The notes under the pieces: model-generated | The model's input: only the letters and a program-made list of their open reading frames with translations | Databases searched by the model: none | What the model was told of the DNA's origin: nothing | Position numbers and translations under genes: made by a program | Source: Candidatus Pacearchaeota archaeon | GTDB lineage: Archaea > Nanobdellota > Nanobdellia > Pacearchaeales > DTIR01 | DNA length: 61,844 bases | Direction: 5' to 3' | NCBI GenBank assembly: GCA_018303805.1 | Contig: JAGVXL010000001.1 | Location: 1-61,844, forward strand | Shown: piece by piece, positions 1,081-10,654 of the stretch | How positions within the stretch are numbered: position 1 is the first letter of the stretch | Layout of the letters: each line of letters starts with the position of its first letter

Positions 1081-1860
1081 CTAGAAAATAAAATCTATGC
1101 CGGCAGATTTTAAGATTGTTCTCATGCTTAGGAGAATAACAATCAAGCCGACAAATATGCCCAATTTCTTGTGGTTTATTTTTCTTGTCATAAATGCGGC
1201 AATAGGCGCAGCAATCAAGCCGCCTATTATCAAGGGAACAGCAGATGCAAAATCTATCTTTTGCAGTGTAAGGAAAAAAGTTATTGAGATGCTGAGTGTA
1301 ACAAAAAATTCCGCAAAATTGACAGAGCCAATGGCTTTCTTGGGATGTGTGTTTGTTATTATTAACGATGGAGTTGCTATAGGCCCCCAGCCTCCGCCGC
1401 CAATTGCATCAACAAAAGCGGCAAAAAATCCGAGAGGGGCAAGTCTCCTTATTCTTGGCACTTTATAGTTTGTTTCACTGATATCTAACCGAATATTCTT
1501 TAAAATAATCAGGACACCCATCATAAGCAATATTCCAGAAACAAAAGGCCTTATTATTGCAGCATTTTGCAATTTAACTGATAAGTATGCTCCAAGAGCG
1601 CCGCCTATAACGCCTGATACGGCTAAATATTTGAATATTTTTTTGTCAACATTGCCTAATTTGAAATGTGAGATGCCTGATGCAAAGGTGGTGAATATCT
1701 CTGAGAAATGCACAATGGAACTTGCTAATGCTGTGCTGAATCCTACTGACAGAAGCAACGAAGTTGAAGTCACCCCATAGCCCATCCCCAGGCTTCCATC
1801 AACCATTTGCGCAATGAACCCAAAAAGCACAATTAGAATATATCTCAGAATTTTCTCCAT
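1081..1860 (-). CDS. TauE/SafE-family anion permease
   Basis: A 259-residue membrane protein with about eight hydrophobic segments. It carries the TauE/SafE signatures DGSLGMGYG near the N-terminus and IGGGGWGPIATPSL in the middle. Members move sulfite, sulfate, sulfonates or sulfoacetate across the cell membrane. It is the last gene of a five-gene minus-strand run with cysH, thiS-tusA, cysK and an AbrB-like gene, 16 bases after cysH. The operon context argues for an oxidised sulfur anion, with direction of transport unknown. The ATG start is in good context after the cysH stop. Confidence 0.8.
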   Translation of the reverse strand: MEKILRYILIVLFGFIAQMVDGSLGMGYGVTSTSLLLSVGFSTALASSIVHFSEIFTTFASGISHFKLGNVDKKIFKYLAVSGVIGGALGAYLSVKLQNAAIIRPFVSGILLMMGVLIILKNIRLDISETNYKVPRIRRLAPLGFFAAFVDAIGGGGWGPIATPSLIITNTHPKKAIGSVNFAEFFVTLSISITFFLTLQKIDFASAVPLIIGGLIAAPIAAFMTRKINHKKLGIFVGLIVILLSMRTILKSAGIDFIF

Positions 1861-1876
1861 TTTTCACCTGTTTATC

Positions 1877-2617
1877 TTATTTAAGAATTCTGGTATGGAT
1901 GCCACATTCACCGCCGCACTTTGAGGTTCCCTGCCATCTTCCTGCTCTTTCAGGTTCATTGTCAGGAACAATTATTGAGCAGGGCTCACATCCCAAGCTC
2001 CTGTAGCCCTTTTTGTAAAGTGGATTAACCTTTATATTGTTCATGGCAAGATATCTCCAGATATCCAGTTCAGTAAACTGAAGAATAGGATTTATTTTTA
2101 CCAAGCCGCCCTTGACTTCAACTTCCTGATAATCCTCTCTTGTCTGCCCCTCTGTTTTCCTCAATCCAGTAATCCACGCATCCAAATCCTTGACTGCTTC
2201 TTTTGTCGGCTCTACTTTAAGAAGCCTGCAGCATTCATCAGGGTTGGTTTCATAAAGACTTTTCCCTGTTTTTTCTTTTACATAATCAAAATATTTATGA
2301 AAATCGTGTGCCGGCAGCAAAACTGTATTTATTTTATTCTCCTTGAAAATTTCTGGAATTTCATCTGCAACAATGTAAACTGTTGCGTCAAGATTCATTT
2401 CCCTGTTTATTTCAATAAGGTATTCAAGGGTTTCACTAGGTTTGTAAATTGTCATCACGGAAAAGATAGGCAGTTTTGGCTCAATGCTTCTCGAAAGATG
2501 CACAGCAACCATGCTGTCCTTGCCAAAAGAGCATGCCACTGCTATTCTCTTATATTTGCTTGCAGCATCTTTTATTATTAATTTTGCATGCTCTACTTTT
2601 TCATTCAGTGTTCCCAT
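1877..2617 (-). CDS. cysH: Adenylylsulfate/phosphoadenylylsulfate reductase (CysH family)
   Basis: The 246-residue protein has the PAPS-reductase PP-loop SFGKDS at residues 30-35, a Cys pair at 129-130, CEPC at 210-213 and the C-terminal ECGIH at 237-241 carrying the catalytic cysteine. The CC...CxxC set binds a [4Fe-4S] cluster and in the family marks enzymes that usually prefer APS over PAPS. It would reduce activated sulfate to sulfite in the cytoplasm with thioredoxin; a thioredoxin gene lies at 8796. It is 11 bases from the thiS-tusA gene in the same operon. No sulfate adenylyltransferase or sulfite reductase is seen in this window. Confidence 0.88.
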   Translation of the reverse strand: MGTLNEKVEHAKLIIKDAASKYKRIAVACSFGKDSMVAVHLSRSIEPKLPIFSVMTIYKPSETLEYLIEINREMNLDATVYIVADEIPEIFKENKINTVLLPAHDFHKYFDYVKEKTGKSLYETNPDECCRLLKVEPTKEAVKDLDAWITGLRKTEGQTREDYQEVEVKGGLVKINPILQFTELDIWRYLAMNNIKVNPLYKKGYRSLGCEPCSIIVPDNEPERAGRWQGTSKCGGECGIHTRILK

Positions 2618-2628
2618 TTTTTCTTTTC

Positions 2629-3066
2629 TTATTTCTTTTTAGCCTCAATCCCTAAAAGGTAATGCTCCTCCTGTTGTTTTAAGTATAGAATCTTATACCC
2701 TTCATTTTTTATGCTGCCTGTGACATTGCCGCACGATTCCTCATTAAGCAGGATTTCTAAAACTCCATCATCCATCTCTTCAAGTTTCAGTTTTGCCTTA
2801 ACAAAATTTAACGGGCAAGAAGTTTGCCGTAGGTCAAGCACCTCTCTATTGCAGCTTACAGAACCGCCGCCCATATAATAAACAAACTCAAGCCTGTCCC
2901 CATTCTTTATTTTAACATCATCATATTTGTTTTTATCAACAATTTGGGAATTCAATTCAACCGTGACAGTCTCTTTTTTTATATTCCTGTCTTCAAGCAA
3001 ATTTGATAGGGTTATTTCTCCTACCATCTGCTCTTTCTTGCCATTTACAAGAATATCTATTGCCAT
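2629..3066 (-). CDS. Fused ThiS/MoaD-like sulfur carrier and TusA-like sulfurtransferase
   Basis: Residues 1 to about 70 form a beta-grasp ThiS/MoaD-like domain (MAIDILVNGKK, then RLEFVYYMGGG). Residues from about 76 on form a TusA/SirA domain with the DLRQTSCPLNFVKAK helix, whose Cys is the persulfide-carrying position (CPxP is CPLN here). Normally the carrier ends in a free Gly-Gly for thiocarboxylation; here GGG is followed by the TusA part. Either a protease exposes it or the domain only docks partners. Set between cysK and cysH, it probably carries or hands over sulfur. Confidence 0.75.
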   Translation of the reverse strand: MAIDILVNGKKEQMVGEITLSNLLEDRNIKKETVTVELNSQIVDKNKYDDVKIKNGDRLEFVYYMGGGSVSCNREVLDLRQTSCPLNFVKAKLKLEEMDDGVLEILLNEESCGNVTGSIKNEGYKILYLKQQEEHYLLGIEAKKK

Positions 3067-3098
3067 TTTTTCCCCTAAATTTTAATCATTCCTGATTT

Positions 3099-4016
3099 TC
3101 AAAATTTAAACATTTCTGTGCTGAGGTATCTCTCACCTGTATCAGGAATTATCACAACAACCTTCTTGCCTCTGCCTAATTTTTTTGCCACTTGCAATGC
3201 CGCAAAAAGGTTTGCGCCAGAGGAAATACCTGCGAAGATTCCCTCTTTCCTTGCTAGTCTTCTTGCTGTCTGTATTGCTTCTTCATTTGAAACCTGGATT
3301 ATTTCATCAAGAATTCCTGTGTTAAGCACCTTTGGGATGAACCCCGCCCCAATGCCCTGGATTTTGTGCGGCCCTTTAGGGCATCCTGAAAGCACAGCAG
3401 AATCTTTCGGCTCAACAGCGATAATCTTTATGCTCTTGTCTCTTTTTTTCAGAACTTCACCAACTCCTGTTAATGTTCCACCGGTTCCAACACCCGCGAC
3501 AAATGCATCTAAATCAGGCACCTGCTTTAAAATTTCCTTTGCTGTTGTTTTCCGGTGTATTTCAGGGTTTGCAGGATTGTTGAACTGTTGCGGCTGGAAA
3601 TAGCCGTGCTTGTCTGCCAATTCCTGTGCTTTTTCAACTGCACCCGTCATGCCCTTTAGACCTTTTGTCAGCACTATCTCTGCCCCAAATGCCTTAAGAA
3701 TATCCCTTCTCTCAACACTCATTGTTTCAGGCATTGTCAGAATTAATTTATAGCCCTTGTATGCGCATACAAATGCCAAGCCAATTCCTGTATTTCCTGA
3801 TGTTGGTTCGATTATTGTGTCACCTGGCTTTATCTTTCCATCTTTCTCTGCCGTCTCAATCATCGCAAGACATATTCTATCCTTGACAGAACTCATTGGA
3901 TTAAAGGATTCAAGTTTTGCATACACCCCGGCTGAATCTTTCCCCACAATCCTGCTTATTTTGACAACAGGGGTGTCCCCAATCAATTCCAAAATGCTAC
4001 TCACAACCTTTGCCAT
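3099..4016 (-). CDS. cysK: Cysteine synthase (O-acetylserine sulfhydrylase), PLP enzyme
   Basis: At 305 residues this is full length for CysK. It shows the PLP-lysine segment NPMSSVKDR (about residues 39-47), the substrate loop PTSGNTG, the phosphate-binding GTGGTLTG and a C-terminal [10 protein letters not shown]. It makes cysteine from an activated serine and sulfide. Archaeal members may use O-phosphoserine or O-acetylserine, which cannot be separated from sequence alone. It starts six bases after the AbrB-like gene, which makes co-regulation likely. Confidence 0.92.
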
Positions 4017-6784: not shown

Positions 6785-8314
6785 ATGGCTGAGATGATTA
6801 ATGACAGGCTTCAAAGCAAGCCATGCATGATTGGATTGCTTGGAAAATGCTGCAAGCATTGCTTGATGGGGCCATGCATTCTTGCGAAACCAAATGATAA
6901 AGGTGTATGCGGGGCAAACATTGATGTTGTTACAGCAAGGAACATTTTAAGATTTGTTGCAGGAGGGGCTGCTGCACATTGCGGGCATGCCTATCACATG
7001 CTTGAATATTCAGACAGGAAGTATTCTGCGAGATATATAGAGAAAAAAGCTCCAAGATATTTATATAAATTATGGGAAAGACTTGGAATTGTGCCAAAAA
7101 TCCATTTTGAGCATTTCAAGGACATTTCTGAAGCGCTTCATGCAAGCACCATGGGTGTTGATGCTAATTACGGGCATATTCTTGGTAATGCCATAAAGCT
7201 TGGCATAATTGACGGATACTTTGGCATGTATCTTGCAACAGAGCTTGAAGAAATGGAGTTTGGCCTGCCCTCCATCAGGAAGGGGATTGTTGATTTAGGC
7301 GTTATAAAGCCGGAAAAAATTAATATTGCTGTGCATGGGCATTTCCCGCCATTGGCAGAAGCTCTTGCCAAAGAAGTGAAGAAAAAGGAAAATTCTGACA
7401 TTAATTTGATAGGGGTGTGCTGCACAGGAACGGCATTGCTTGCAAGGCATGGAATTCCTCTTGCGGGGAATTTCATACTGCAGGAGCAGGTGATTGTTTC
7501 AGGGTGTGTTGATGTTCTTGCTGTTGACATGCAATGCATTATGCCTTCCTTGTCTGACTTGGCTGAATGCTATCACACAAAAATTGTAACTACAAACGAG
7601 CTTTGTAGGATTCCAAAGGCAATGCATCTCCCTGTCTCTGGCAGGAAGAGTGCCTCAGATGTTGCAAAAAGAATTATCGCCCTTGCAAGAATAAACAGGC
7701 ACAACAGGAATAAGGGAAAGATGAAGTTAAGCAATAATAAAACAGAGGCAGTTGTCGGATTTTCTGAAAATAATCTGCCTCTTGCAGAGTGGGCAAAGAT
7801 GCTTTCTGAGGGAAAGATAAAGGGAGTTGTTGCCGCAATCGGCTGCGAAAATCCTAGAGTGAAGGAAAACTGGGTTGATTTTTACAGGGAATTAAGCAAG
7901 GATTACATAATCCTAACGACTGGATGCATTGCCTTTAAACTGGCAGCTGCTGGACTGCTTGATGGAAAAAGATTTTTCCATCTTGGAAGCTGTGTGAATA
8001 ACTCGAGAGTTGCTGAAGTGTTCAGGAAAATAGCGGAAATCATTGACAAGCAGATAACAGAACTGCCTTTCTTGATATCCTGCCCAATGCCTATAACAGA
8101 AAAAGCCATAGCGATTGGCTTTTTTTTCGCAGCTTTGGGTGTTGATGTGCATTTTGGATATCCCTTCCTGCTGACTTCTGACACGAAGATCGCAGATTTT
8201 CTCAAAAATCTGCTCAAGAAAGATTTCAGAAGCAAGATTTTTGTTGAAACAAATCCAGAAATGTTGATTGCAAGAATAAGGAAAGAAGGGCTGAGCGATA
8301 AGGTAAAAAATTAA
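6785..8314 (+). CDS. cooS: Short CooS-type Ni-Fe carbon monoxide dehydrogenase catalytic subunit
   Basis: The protein is 509 residues, about 120 shorter than the usual CooS of 630 or so. All cluster ligands appear present. C14 and C22 match the D-cluster pair, and C23, C26, C31 and C42 match the B-cluster. C-cluster ligands are matched by H186 (VHGH), C213 (GVCCTG), C251 (DMQC), C354 (GCENP), C381 (TTGC) and C403 (LGSC), and TEKAIAIG holds the acid-base Lys region. It would interconvert CO and CO2 in the cytoplasm. No CooF, CooC or Acs gene lies nearby, so the electron partner is unknown. Confidence 0.85.
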   Translation: MAEMINDRLQSKPCMIGLLGKCCKHCLMGPCILAKPNDKGVCGANIDVVTARNILRFVAGGAAAHCGHAYHMLEYSDRKYSARYIEKKAPRYLYKLWERLGIVPKIHFEHFKDISEALHASTMGVDANYGHILGNAIKLGIIDGYFGMYLATELEEMEFGLPSIRKGIVDLGVIKPEKINIAVHGHFPPLAEALAKEVKKKENSDINLIGVCCTGTALLARHGIPLAGNFILQEQVIVSGCVDVLAVDMQCIMPSLSDLAECYHTKIVTTNELCRIPKAMHLPVSGRKSASDVAKRIIALARINRHNRNKGKMKLSNNKTEAVVGFSENNLPLAEWAKMLSEGKIKGVVAAIGCENPRVKENWVDFYRELSKDYIILTTGCIAFKLAAAGLLDGKRFFHLGSCVNNSRVAEVFRKIAEIIDKQITELPFLISCPMPITEKAIAIGFFFAALGVDVHFGYPFLLTSDTKIADFLKNLLKKDFRSKIFVETNPEMLIARIRKEGLSDKVKN

Positions 8315-8366: not shown

Positions 8367-8738
8367 ATGGTATTATTTTTATTATGCATTCCATGCCTGA
8401 CATTGATAGTGTATTTCCTTGTTCTGGGCATTTTTATCCCCCATTACCGTGTTTATATCAAAGAGGCATGGAGATGCTTTCTTGACAAGTTGAGAGGAAA
8501 AAGATGCTCTGTGAGCTTTGACAACAAGATGCATAAGGCATTTGTTTTATGGCTTGCAAAGCACAACAAAATCAAGATGGCAAGATTTTTCAACAAGAAA
8601 AGGAACTTTGATGTTTTTCTGGTGATTGTAATCGTGTTATTCACAATATTAACAACATGGCTTGCATGGCTCTTGTATAAGTTTTTGTTTATCAAGTCGC
8701 CTTGCGAAGGAAGCACACAGCCAATTTGCATTGGCTAA
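8367..8738 (+). CDS. Hypothetical two-helix membrane protein
   Basis: I do not recognise a family. The 123-residue protein has a hydrophobic N-terminal helix (about residues 2-26), a basic cytoplasmic-looking middle (CFLDKLRGKRCSVSF...), a second hydrophobic helix at about 84-110 and a short tail ending with two Cys (SPCEGSTQPICIG). A TATA-like TTTTTATAAG precedes it by about 25 bases, suggesting its own short-leader transcript. It lies between cooS and thioredoxin; the Cys-bearing tail could be a redox partner, but that is speculation. Confidence 0.7.
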   Translation: MVLFLLCIPCLTLIVYFLVLGIFIPHYRVYIKEAWRCFLDKLRGKRCSVSFDNKMHKAFVLWLAKHNKIKMARFFNKKRNFDVFLVIVIVLFTILTTWLAWLLYKFLFIKSPCEGSTQPICIG

Positions 8739-8795
8739 TGCAAAGAAAAATTTTAAATACAGGCTAAACAGCATAATAGGATAAAAGAAGTGAAA

Positions 8796-9182
8796 ATGGC
8801 AAAAAAAACCGAAAAAATTAAGGAGAAAACAGGCAAGGCTAAAAATGAAGAAAAATCAGGCAGTGGTGAAGTGAAAGAGATAACTGATGCTGAGTTTGAG
8901 CCCCTCCTGAAGGAGAATGATGCTATCTTGGTGGATTTTTTTGCAGAGTGGTGCATGCCATGCGTGATGATGGTGCCTGTTATGGATGAGCTTGCAAAAG
9001 ATTTTGCAGGCAGGGTTGTGTTTGCAAAAATGAATGTTGATGAGAACCATAACACCCCTGCAAAATTCAAGATTATGTCTATCCCAACCCTGCTGATTTT
9101 CAAGAAAGGTGAGCTTGTCCAGAGATTTACCGGAGCATTGTCTTATGACATGCTGAAAGAGAAAATAGATTCATGTTTGTAA
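8796..9182 (+). CDS. trxA: Thioredoxin
   Basis: I start at ATG 8796 rather than the upstream GTG 8790, because an AAGTGA ribosome-like site fits the ATG; both are possible. After a charged Lys/Glu-rich extension of about 30 residues comes a thioredoxin fold: VDFFAEWCMPC (active-site CMPC), then the cis-Pro loop MSIPTLLIF and GALSYDMLKEKI. It reduces disulfides and could serve the CysH-type reductase at 1877. The stop is one base before the GDH-like ATG, so the two are surely co-transcribed. A TTTAAATA box lies about 40 bases upstream. Confidence 0.9.
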   Translation: MAKKTEKIKEKTGKAKNEEKSGSGEVKEITDAEFEPLLKENDAILVDFFAEWCMPCVMMVPVMDELAKDFAGRVVFAKMNVDENHNTPAKFKIMSIPTLLIFKKGELVQRFTGALSYDMLKEKIDSCL

Positions 9183-9183
9183 A

Positions 9184-10539
9184 ATGGCTGAAATTAGTGA
9201 CGAGGACATAGGGCATATTGTAAGCAGCTTAAATGTGGAGGATTTGAAACCGCAGGAGCAATTTGAAGAGGTGGAGCCATACAGTTTTATCCTTGGGAAG
9301 ATTTTTATCCTTGCAAGAAATCTGAAAATTTCTCCAGGAATTGTTGATAGAATCTCCTTAAATGACAAGATTATTGAGATAGATGTCCCAGTTGTGCTGG
9401 AAAGTAAAGCCGGAGGCAAGGAGCTTGTGAAAATTTTTCCTGGTTTTTGGGTTGAGCACAACAGCGTGTTAGGCAAGTATAAGGGCAATGTAGATTACCT
9501 GTCTGGCTTAACCATGGAAAAAGCCAAGTTAAATGCGCTGAATGCAACACTGCAAAATTCATTGCTTGACCTGCCTTTCGGAGGCGCCTCTGGGGGGGTA
9601 TGTGTTGACAAGAAAATTTTAACGCCAAAAGAAACTGAAAGACTAGCAAAAAATTACGCAAACAGCCTTCGTAGAGCTGTCGGCTTTGACAAGAATATCC
9701 TGAGTTCAGGAGCTGGCTGTGATGAGAGATTAATGTCAATTATGTATAACCTATGCAAGGAGATGGGAAAAGAAACAAAAAAATCAAGCTTCTTGGGCAA
9801 GCAGATGCAGGATGGGGGGATAAAAGCAAGAAGCAATGCCGTTGCAGCTGGCATTTTTAATCTTATTAACGAGGCATTAAAAGGAATGGAAGTCAGCGGG
9901 ATTCCAGGCCTCCAGAAGCATGAAGACATAATTAAGAAATCACAAAAAGAGATGAATGTTGTTTTGATAGGATTCAATGCTGTTGAGAAAGAACTCGCAT
10001 TCCTGCTTTCTTCTGCAGGCTACAAGCTCCTTGCGGTATCAGATGCATTGGGGGGGGCAGCTTCTTCAACAGGAGTTCACGCAGAAGACGCAGCAAGATG
10101 GCAGCGCAATCATACAAGTGTTGTAGGGCTGCCTAAAACAGTAAAGGTAACAAATGAGCAGATGCTGCAGATAAAGGCAGATGTTCTTATTCTCGCCTCT
10201 GATGTCCGCATAAGCAGAAACAGCATGGGCAAGATAAAAGCCCCATTAATTGTTGAGCTTCTGCCTGCGATAAATCCAATGATTTTTGAAGAGCTTTCCA
10301 AAAAAAGGATGATTATACCTTATATCCTCACAAGTTCTGTAAGCGCTTATGTAGATTATCTTGAGTTTTTGCAGAACCAGGCAGACAAATATCTCGAAAG
10401 AAAAGAAATAGACAAGAGGATTGAAGAAAAATCAAAGGAGATTTTCCAGGTGATTTACAACACATCAAGGCAGTATGCAGTAAATCTGCATGATGCGTCC
10501 TATATTCTTGCCTTGCAGAATCTTGCCAGGCGTGTTTAA
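9184..10539 (+). CDS. Glutamate dehydrogenase-like protein with catalytic and nucleotide motifs lost
   Basis: The 451 residues align throughout with GluDH: VEHNSVLGKYKG, LLDLPFGGASGG, a Rossmann part beginning NVVLIGFNAVEKE and a C-terminal VDYLEFLQN. Key residues are altered. GGxKGG is GGASGG (S136 for the catalytic Lys), the preceding MTxK lysine is Q124, PAPD is replaced by SSGAG, the GxGxxG loop is GFNAVE, and the V-S-Y-F-E-W serine is Asp. So glutamate deamination is unlikely. It may be a regulatory or structural paralogue, possibly redox-linked since it is coupled to thioredoxin. Confidence 0.8.
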   Translation: MAEISDEDIGHIVSSLNVEDLKPQEQFEEVEPYSFILGKIFILARNLKISPGIVDRISLNDKIIEIDVPVVLESKAGGKELVKIFPGFWVEHNSVLGKYKGNVDYLSGLTMEKAKLNALNATLQNSLLDLPFGGASGGVCVDKKILTPKETERLAKNYANSLRRAVGFDKNILSSGAGCDERLMSIMYNLCKEMGKETKKSSFLGKQMQDGGIKARSNAVAAGIFNLINEALKGMEVSGIPGLQKHEDIIKKSQKEMNVVLIGFNAVEKELAFLLSSAGYKLLAVSDALGGAASSTGVHAEDAARWQRNHTSVVGLPKTVKVTNEQMLQIKADVLILASDVRISRNSMGKIKAPLIVELLPAINPMIFEELSKKRMIIPYILTSSVSAYVDYLEFLQNQADKYLERKEIDKRIEEKSKEIFQVIYNTSRQYAVNLHDASYILALQNLARRV

Positions 10540-10578: not shown

Positions 10579-10654
10579 GGACCCGTAGCTCAGCTTGGTT
10601 TAGAGCGCTAGCCTTTTAAGCTAGATGTCGCGCGTTCAAATCGCGTCGGGTCCA
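10579..10654 (+). tRNA. tRNA-Lys (TTT)
   Basis: The acceptor GGACCCG pairs with CGGGTCC and is followed by discriminator A. The D-arm is GCTC...GAGC, the anticodon stem CTAGC/GCTAG encloses CTTTTAA with anticodon TTT, and the T-arm loop is TTCAAAT. CCA is not encoded. No intron. Confidence 0.95.

Follow-up and report, generated by a model that had tools for sequence, protein, structure and literature searches.

A glutamate dehydrogenase-fold protein lacking the catalytic lysine and aspartate, most likely a maintained pseudoenzyme, in a Candidatus Pacearchaeota archaeon

What becomes of a glutamate dehydrogenase (GDH) gene that keeps a full-length reading frame while the catalytic lysine and aspartate of the family are gone from its product: is it decaying, does it encode an enzyme with new chemistry or is it maintained as a protein without catalysis? 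This question is raised by an open reading frame (ORF) found in the window, i.e., the whole stretch of 61,844 nucleotides analysed here, and the evidence presented below indicates that its product is most likely a real GDH pseudoenzyme that has been maintained. The genes of immediate concern are the following:

6785–8314, + strand: CooS-like short protein (Prismane/CODH; PF03063, E 6e-104), with a 64% identical orthologue in a sister genus
8367–8738, + strand: small membrane-like protein, no Pfam match, with a syntenic 59% identical orthologue in the sister genus
8790–9182, + strand: thioredoxin (WCMPC; PF00085, E 4e-28), whose 55% identical orthologue lies beside an intact GDH in the sister genus
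9184–10539, + strand: most likely a GDH-fold pseudoenzyme of 451 amino acids, as judged from homology, residue losses, AlphaFold2 and Foldseek

The GDH-like gene and its counterpart in a sister genus

The intact, full-length frame described in the earlier note is confirmed, the ORF having an ATG start and zero in-frame stops. Both the N- and the C-terminal Pfam ELFV domains are present at full length and are matched above the cut-offs (78.9 and 73.4 bits), and the best match in the PDB is the P. furiosus GDH 1gtm (E 5e-46, residues 29–447); the score with NF040817, the NCBIfam equivalog for archaeal GDH, is 185 bits vs a cut-off of 750. The structure prediction that the note had proposed returned a GDH fold, the monomer being modelled by AlphaFold2 with a mean pLDDT of 91.0 and a pTM of 0.89, and the top Foldseek match of this model being the T. 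profundus GDH 8xcr (TM 0.84). The input alignment (79 sequences, namely the window protein and 78 others) was built from active GDHs and favours the GDH fold, so that the model is consistent with this fold rather than decisive. The window protein has in common with the archaeal hexameric GDHs (1gtm, 8xcr, NF040817) the two-domain full-length fold, the synteny and the phylogeny, and differs from them by the absence of the catalytic Lys and Asp, of two substrate residues (one Lys and the Ser) and of two glycines of the Rossmann motif.

The only other genome of the same family in the comparison, a Candidatus Pacearchaeota of a sister genus (record JACRHU010000002.1), displays the same gene order, consisting of PP-loop, mini-CooS, membrane protein, thioredoxin and GDH. 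The identities between the two genomes are 54% for the PP-loop protein, as listed above for the three genes that follow it, and 34% for the GDH, which in the sister genus has all its catalytic residues. In a maximum-likelihood tree of 30 GDHs the two proteins form a sister pair with a UFBoot of 100, the terminal branch measuring 1.60 substitutions per site for the window protein vs 0.376 for that of the sister genus. The collinear locus and the sister position in the tree indicate that one GDH gene was inherited here and that its active site was lost on the window branch; the window gene is the orthologue of the intact GDH, presumably inactivated along one long branch.

The coupling of the gene to thioredoxin, which the earlier note had mentioned, is real, the thioredoxin stop and the GDH-like ATG being separated by 1 base (115 bases in the sister genus), but it is not peculiar to the altered protein. 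Indeed, a same-strand thioredoxin occurs within ~1.5 kb of the GDH at 8 of the 49 phylum GDH loci, the window and the sister genus included, and this recurrent proximity suggests a functional pairing. Since thioredoxin is also found beside the intact GDH of the sister genus and at 6 more loci, the pairing predates the loss of catalysis; the linkage is ancestral and makes thioredoxin a candidate partner, without constituting evidence for a new function.

As to the other genes of the region, the CooS-like protein, encoded in a tiny genome, is 509 amino acids long and scores 322.6 bits vs the CooS equivalog cut-off of 478. Sulfur-related genes are found on the opposite strand (1084–4016, − strand), encoding a TauE/SafE exporter, a PAPS-reductase domain protein and a PALP-family PLP enzyme, the latter two having orthologues in the sister genus (62% and 79% identity, respectively), and a tRNA-Lys gene (anticodon ttt, 10579–10654) is located directly downstream of the GDH-like gene.

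Active-site residues lost and retained

The window protein was compared with 128 other GDHs, comprising 1gtm, 19 sequences of the same order, 79 taken from named genomes and 29 representing the phylum. Five key columns, i.e., the lysines K-γ and K-α, the catalytic Lys, the catalytic Asp and the substrate Ser, are invariant in 128/128 of these sequences; the window protein keeps only K-γ and loses the other four, being the sole exception among the aligned GDHs at each of these as well as at the Asn of the ANGP motif, which is replaced by P361. The altered motifs are the following:

9553–9555, + strand: codon of Q124, in place of the α-carboxylate Lys (K-α; Lys in 128/128 others)
9580–9597, + strand: GGASGG, with S136 for the catalytic Lys of GG(A/G)KGG (Lys in 128/128 others)
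9700–9711, + strand: LSSG, with G176 for the catalytic Asp of PAPD (Asp in 128/128 others)
9967–9987, + strand: IGFNAVE, aligned with QG(F/Y)GNAG; Rossmann glycine loop without its second and third Gly
10333–10356, + strand: SSVSAYVD, in place of NAGGVTVS, with D391 for the substrate Ser (Ser in 128/128 others)

In the phmmer alignment it is N125, and not Q124, that falls in the K-α column, neither residue being a Lys. Within GFNAVE the first glycine of the Rossmann motif is retained, the second is N265 and the third E268, so that the GxGxxG/A pattern is absent. Also retained are K206, R216, D287 and K100, the latter being the Lys of the YKG motif (K-γ) and corresponding to K89 in C. symbiosum numbering. 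The new D391, lying opposite the kept K100, could neutralise it. Roles of K89 and S380 of GDH in side-chain specificity are mentioned in one source (PMC2723916).

Altogether, 42 of the 79 near-invariant columns (90% threshold) are affected, vs 24 in the next worst rows and a median of 1. The statement of the earlier note that at least five positions defining GDH are changed together is correct for each of the motifs that it named. A protein in which the catalytic Lys and Asp are absent, as are K-α and Ser among the substrate residues, while K-γ is present, would not be expected to have GDH activity.

Decay or maintenance of the gene

The window belongs to a one-contig assembly of 575 kb, estimated to be 77% complete, in which one ELFV protein is encoded, that of the window itself, and in which neither another GDH nor a GOGAT domain nor a glutamine synthetase was found. 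The genome of the sister genus has a GOGAT domain, and a glutamine synthetase was not found there. Glutamate or glutamine is probably imported by the cell, and with such an import catalysis by GDH would no longer have been needed. With the glutamate-forming genes missing from the genome, relaxed selection is plausible, and it could be argued that the gene has lost its function recently and drifts towards loss, being intact only for want of time; the occurrence of the altered protein in one species only, its long branch and its low profile log-odds would all fit this explanation.

Selection on the gene was assessed from this one genome and from simulations. Stops, frameshifts and loss of coding bias, the marks of a pseudogene, are all absent, and the coding score (0.335) is mid-range among the 32 other window ORFs of at least 200 amino acids (0.05–0.46). 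A broken-frame pseudogene is thus rejected by the stop-free frame and an assembly error by the dozens of independent codon changes accommodated within it. How many stops should be expected under neutrality is indicated by a simple simulation, in which 250 replacements were accompanied by ~15 stop-creating mutations, and by a two-phase model, in which the sequence first diverged normally until its nominal identity was 60, 50, 45 or 42% (the 42% start having actually stopped at 45%) and then drifted neutrally to 34%. The two-phase runs required about 144–294 replacements and entailed 8.8–17.7 stop-creating mutations, 0/400 runs remaining stop-free; the actual gene contains no stop. Furthermore, its coding score was reached by no neutral run from the 60% start.

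The nature of the replacements was analysed separately inside and outside the active site, using a list of active-site columns based on GDH structures. Away from the active site, the residues introduced at changed positions conform to the hydropathy pattern of the family (r = 0.64), compared with 0.00 ± 0.065 in permutations and 0.22 ± 0.06 in one-phase neutral runs; in the two-phase model this value was reached by 0, 2, 17 and 24 runs per 100 with starts at 60, 50, 45 and 42%, respectively. Since drift from a ~45% start attains it in 17–24 of 100 runs, the case for maintenance would, with such a start, rest mainly on the missing stops. On the other hand, the active-site replacements resemble permuted ones, the observed log-odds being reached by 505 of 1000 permutations, whereas the remaining sites are far from permuted. 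For the changed sites beyond the active site, the profile log-odds is −0.30 vs 0.66 to 1.96 in seven active controls, which implies that constraint has been relaxed, weakened or altered to some degree, and it was reached by 21/100 neutral runs from the 60% start and by 100/100 from each lower start. Taken alone, profile log-odds do not separate decay from maintenance, nor does hydropathy alone when drift begins at ~45%.

A recent decay is nevertheless disfavoured by the zero stops found where neutral drift implies 9–18, by the normal coding bias and by a hydropathy that is conserved elsewhere in the protein but not in the active site, and we consider it unlikely. These same observations, i.e., coding bias, missing stops and fold-conserving replacements restricted to sites outside the active site, speak for the view taken in the earlier note that the protein is a maintained non-enzyme and not the product of a decaying gene.

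Possible roles and significance of the protein

The whole pocket has changed together, with D391 standing where the γ-carboxylate-binding Ser was and with K100, K206, R216 and D287 kept, and these features could belong to an enzyme with new chemistry, operating in a remodelled cleft without NAD(P). However, the active-site replacements appear haphazard and give no indication that a particular new set has been selected, and no second sequence conserving a new residue set was found; this explanation is accordingly held to be quite improbable.

Two GDH-fold proteins devoid of catalysis are already known, one of which provides the precedent for a further possibility. In Thermus thermophilus, GdhA is described as an inactive regulatory GDH subunit forming a mixed hexamer with GdhB (PMC9570180), and both GdhA and the window protein have the GDH fold without catalysis. 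Yet GdhA has an active partner, whereas no partner GDH is encoded in the present one-contig assembly, admittedly estimated to be only 77% complete, where the window gene is the one ELFV match. A mixed hexamer with another GDH was thus rejected, and a dead regulatory subunit of this type is very unlikely here. The second precedent is S. aureus YwlG, described as a GDH-like hexamer that is inactive when purified alone and has the hibernation factor HPF as a binding partner (PMC9522360). Both proteins would be non-catalytic GDH-like proteins; unlike the window protein, YwlG is about half the size, without the N-terminal domain and 11% identical to GudB, and it is not an orthologue of GDH at the GDH locus, which the window protein is. 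A dead GDH in these archaea was not found described in the titles and abstracts of the literature searched.

That the protein might still be a working GDH whose catalytic residues have migrated, as the kept K100 and the presence of other Lys and Asp residues nearby could suggest, is hardly credible, for the motifs are ungapped, the nearest Lys to S136 is at +6/+7, the Asp closest to G176 (+4) has an aligned counterpart in the active sister-genus GDH, next to the true catalytic Asp of that enzyme, and is thus ancestral, and the Rossmann loop is also broken; a shifted active site, which the earlier note had named as a possible objection, was accordingly rejected, no shift restoring the catalytic Lys or Asp.

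How rare such proteins are was investigated by several searches. Protein searches with the window sequence gave matches in 20 of 200 genomes of the order and in 191 of 371 genomes sampled from the phylum. The loci inspected were the 20 of the order and the 29 best phylum matches, followed by 112 further listed phylum stretches and 16 loci from the family of a second genome, G200; these two added sets overlap in a few genomes, and the phylum part covers the matches listed. Among the 128 added loci an ORF with all five columns is present in 119, 118 being canonical and one not, and the remaining 9 offer only fragments or masked sequence, one fragment (L159, half of a split gene) having Arg in the catalytic Lys column. 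At the DNA level, a pattern P-F/Y/L/S-GG-A/G-x-GG, in which the codon of x has A/T followed by C/G and can therefore never specify Lys, was found in 2 of 378 genomes of the class (the window genome and G200) and in 1 of 352 of the order of G200 (G200 itself); a reversed control pattern was found in one genome of each set. No close relative of the altered protein was confirmed in genome contigs (38 pattern matches) or viral contigs (11 pattern matches), and a second species with the altered window protein was not found in these order, phylum, genome-contig and viral-contig searches.

The case of G200, a genome rated 100% complete, is a parallel one:

L198:12432-13664, − strand: dead GDH of G200, 410 amino acids, full-length frame

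This homologue also has GGASGG, a catalytic Asp changed to Gly and three Lys replaced by Ser. It resembles the window protein in the first two of these changes, in the loss of K-α, in the full-length frame, in the long branch and in the fold-conserving changes, its replacements outside the active site following family hydropathy (0.65); it differs in having kept the Rossmann GFGNVG and the substrate Ser and in having lost K-γ as well. The two proteins stand apart in the tree, both on long branches (1.19 and 1.50), and the dead GDH of G200, which comes from another family of the class, is of independent origin. No thioredoxin was found beside it in the 29 kb examined around it.

The reading that we favour, and hold with moderate confidence to be probable, is that the window protein is a former GDH whose fold is under purifying selection and which is now a non-catalytic binding/scaffolding or regulatory protein, its role having outlived catalysis after glutamate synthesis lapsed. 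On the window branch, purifying selection would have kept the fold while the residues for catalysis and substrate binding disappeared, as did the dinucleotide loop. A side job of the active ancestor, scaffolding or regulatory, would probably have predated the loss of catalysis and have outlived it once the cell no longer made its own glutamate. The protein is predicted to assemble into an oligomer, probably a hexamer as in GDH, and this role may be carried by its surfaces or by the rebuilt pocket, the co-directional, almost overlapping thioredoxin being the first candidate partner; oligomeric state, binding role and thioredoxin partnership are all predictions.

More tentatively, and with some doubt, it may be imagined that in host-dependent archaea an unrecognised non-catalytic job of GDH, perhaps exerted with thioredoxin, has outlived catalysis in at least two lineages, giving rise to convergent GDH-fold pseudoenzymes that share GGASGG and the replacement of Asp by Gly. 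Textbooks present GDH as a housekeeping enzyme. A single-copy orthologue that has lost catalysis and kept the fold, while its intact sister occupies the corresponding locus, represents a clean natural separation of a metabolic enzyme from any second role, and hidden non-catalytic functions of GDH can be tested directly with it. Annotated by its Pfam domains, the window protein would be called a GDH, and the organism would be assigned a glutamate metabolism that is probably absent; the gene also shows what reduced, partner-dependent archaea retain on dropping a pathway.
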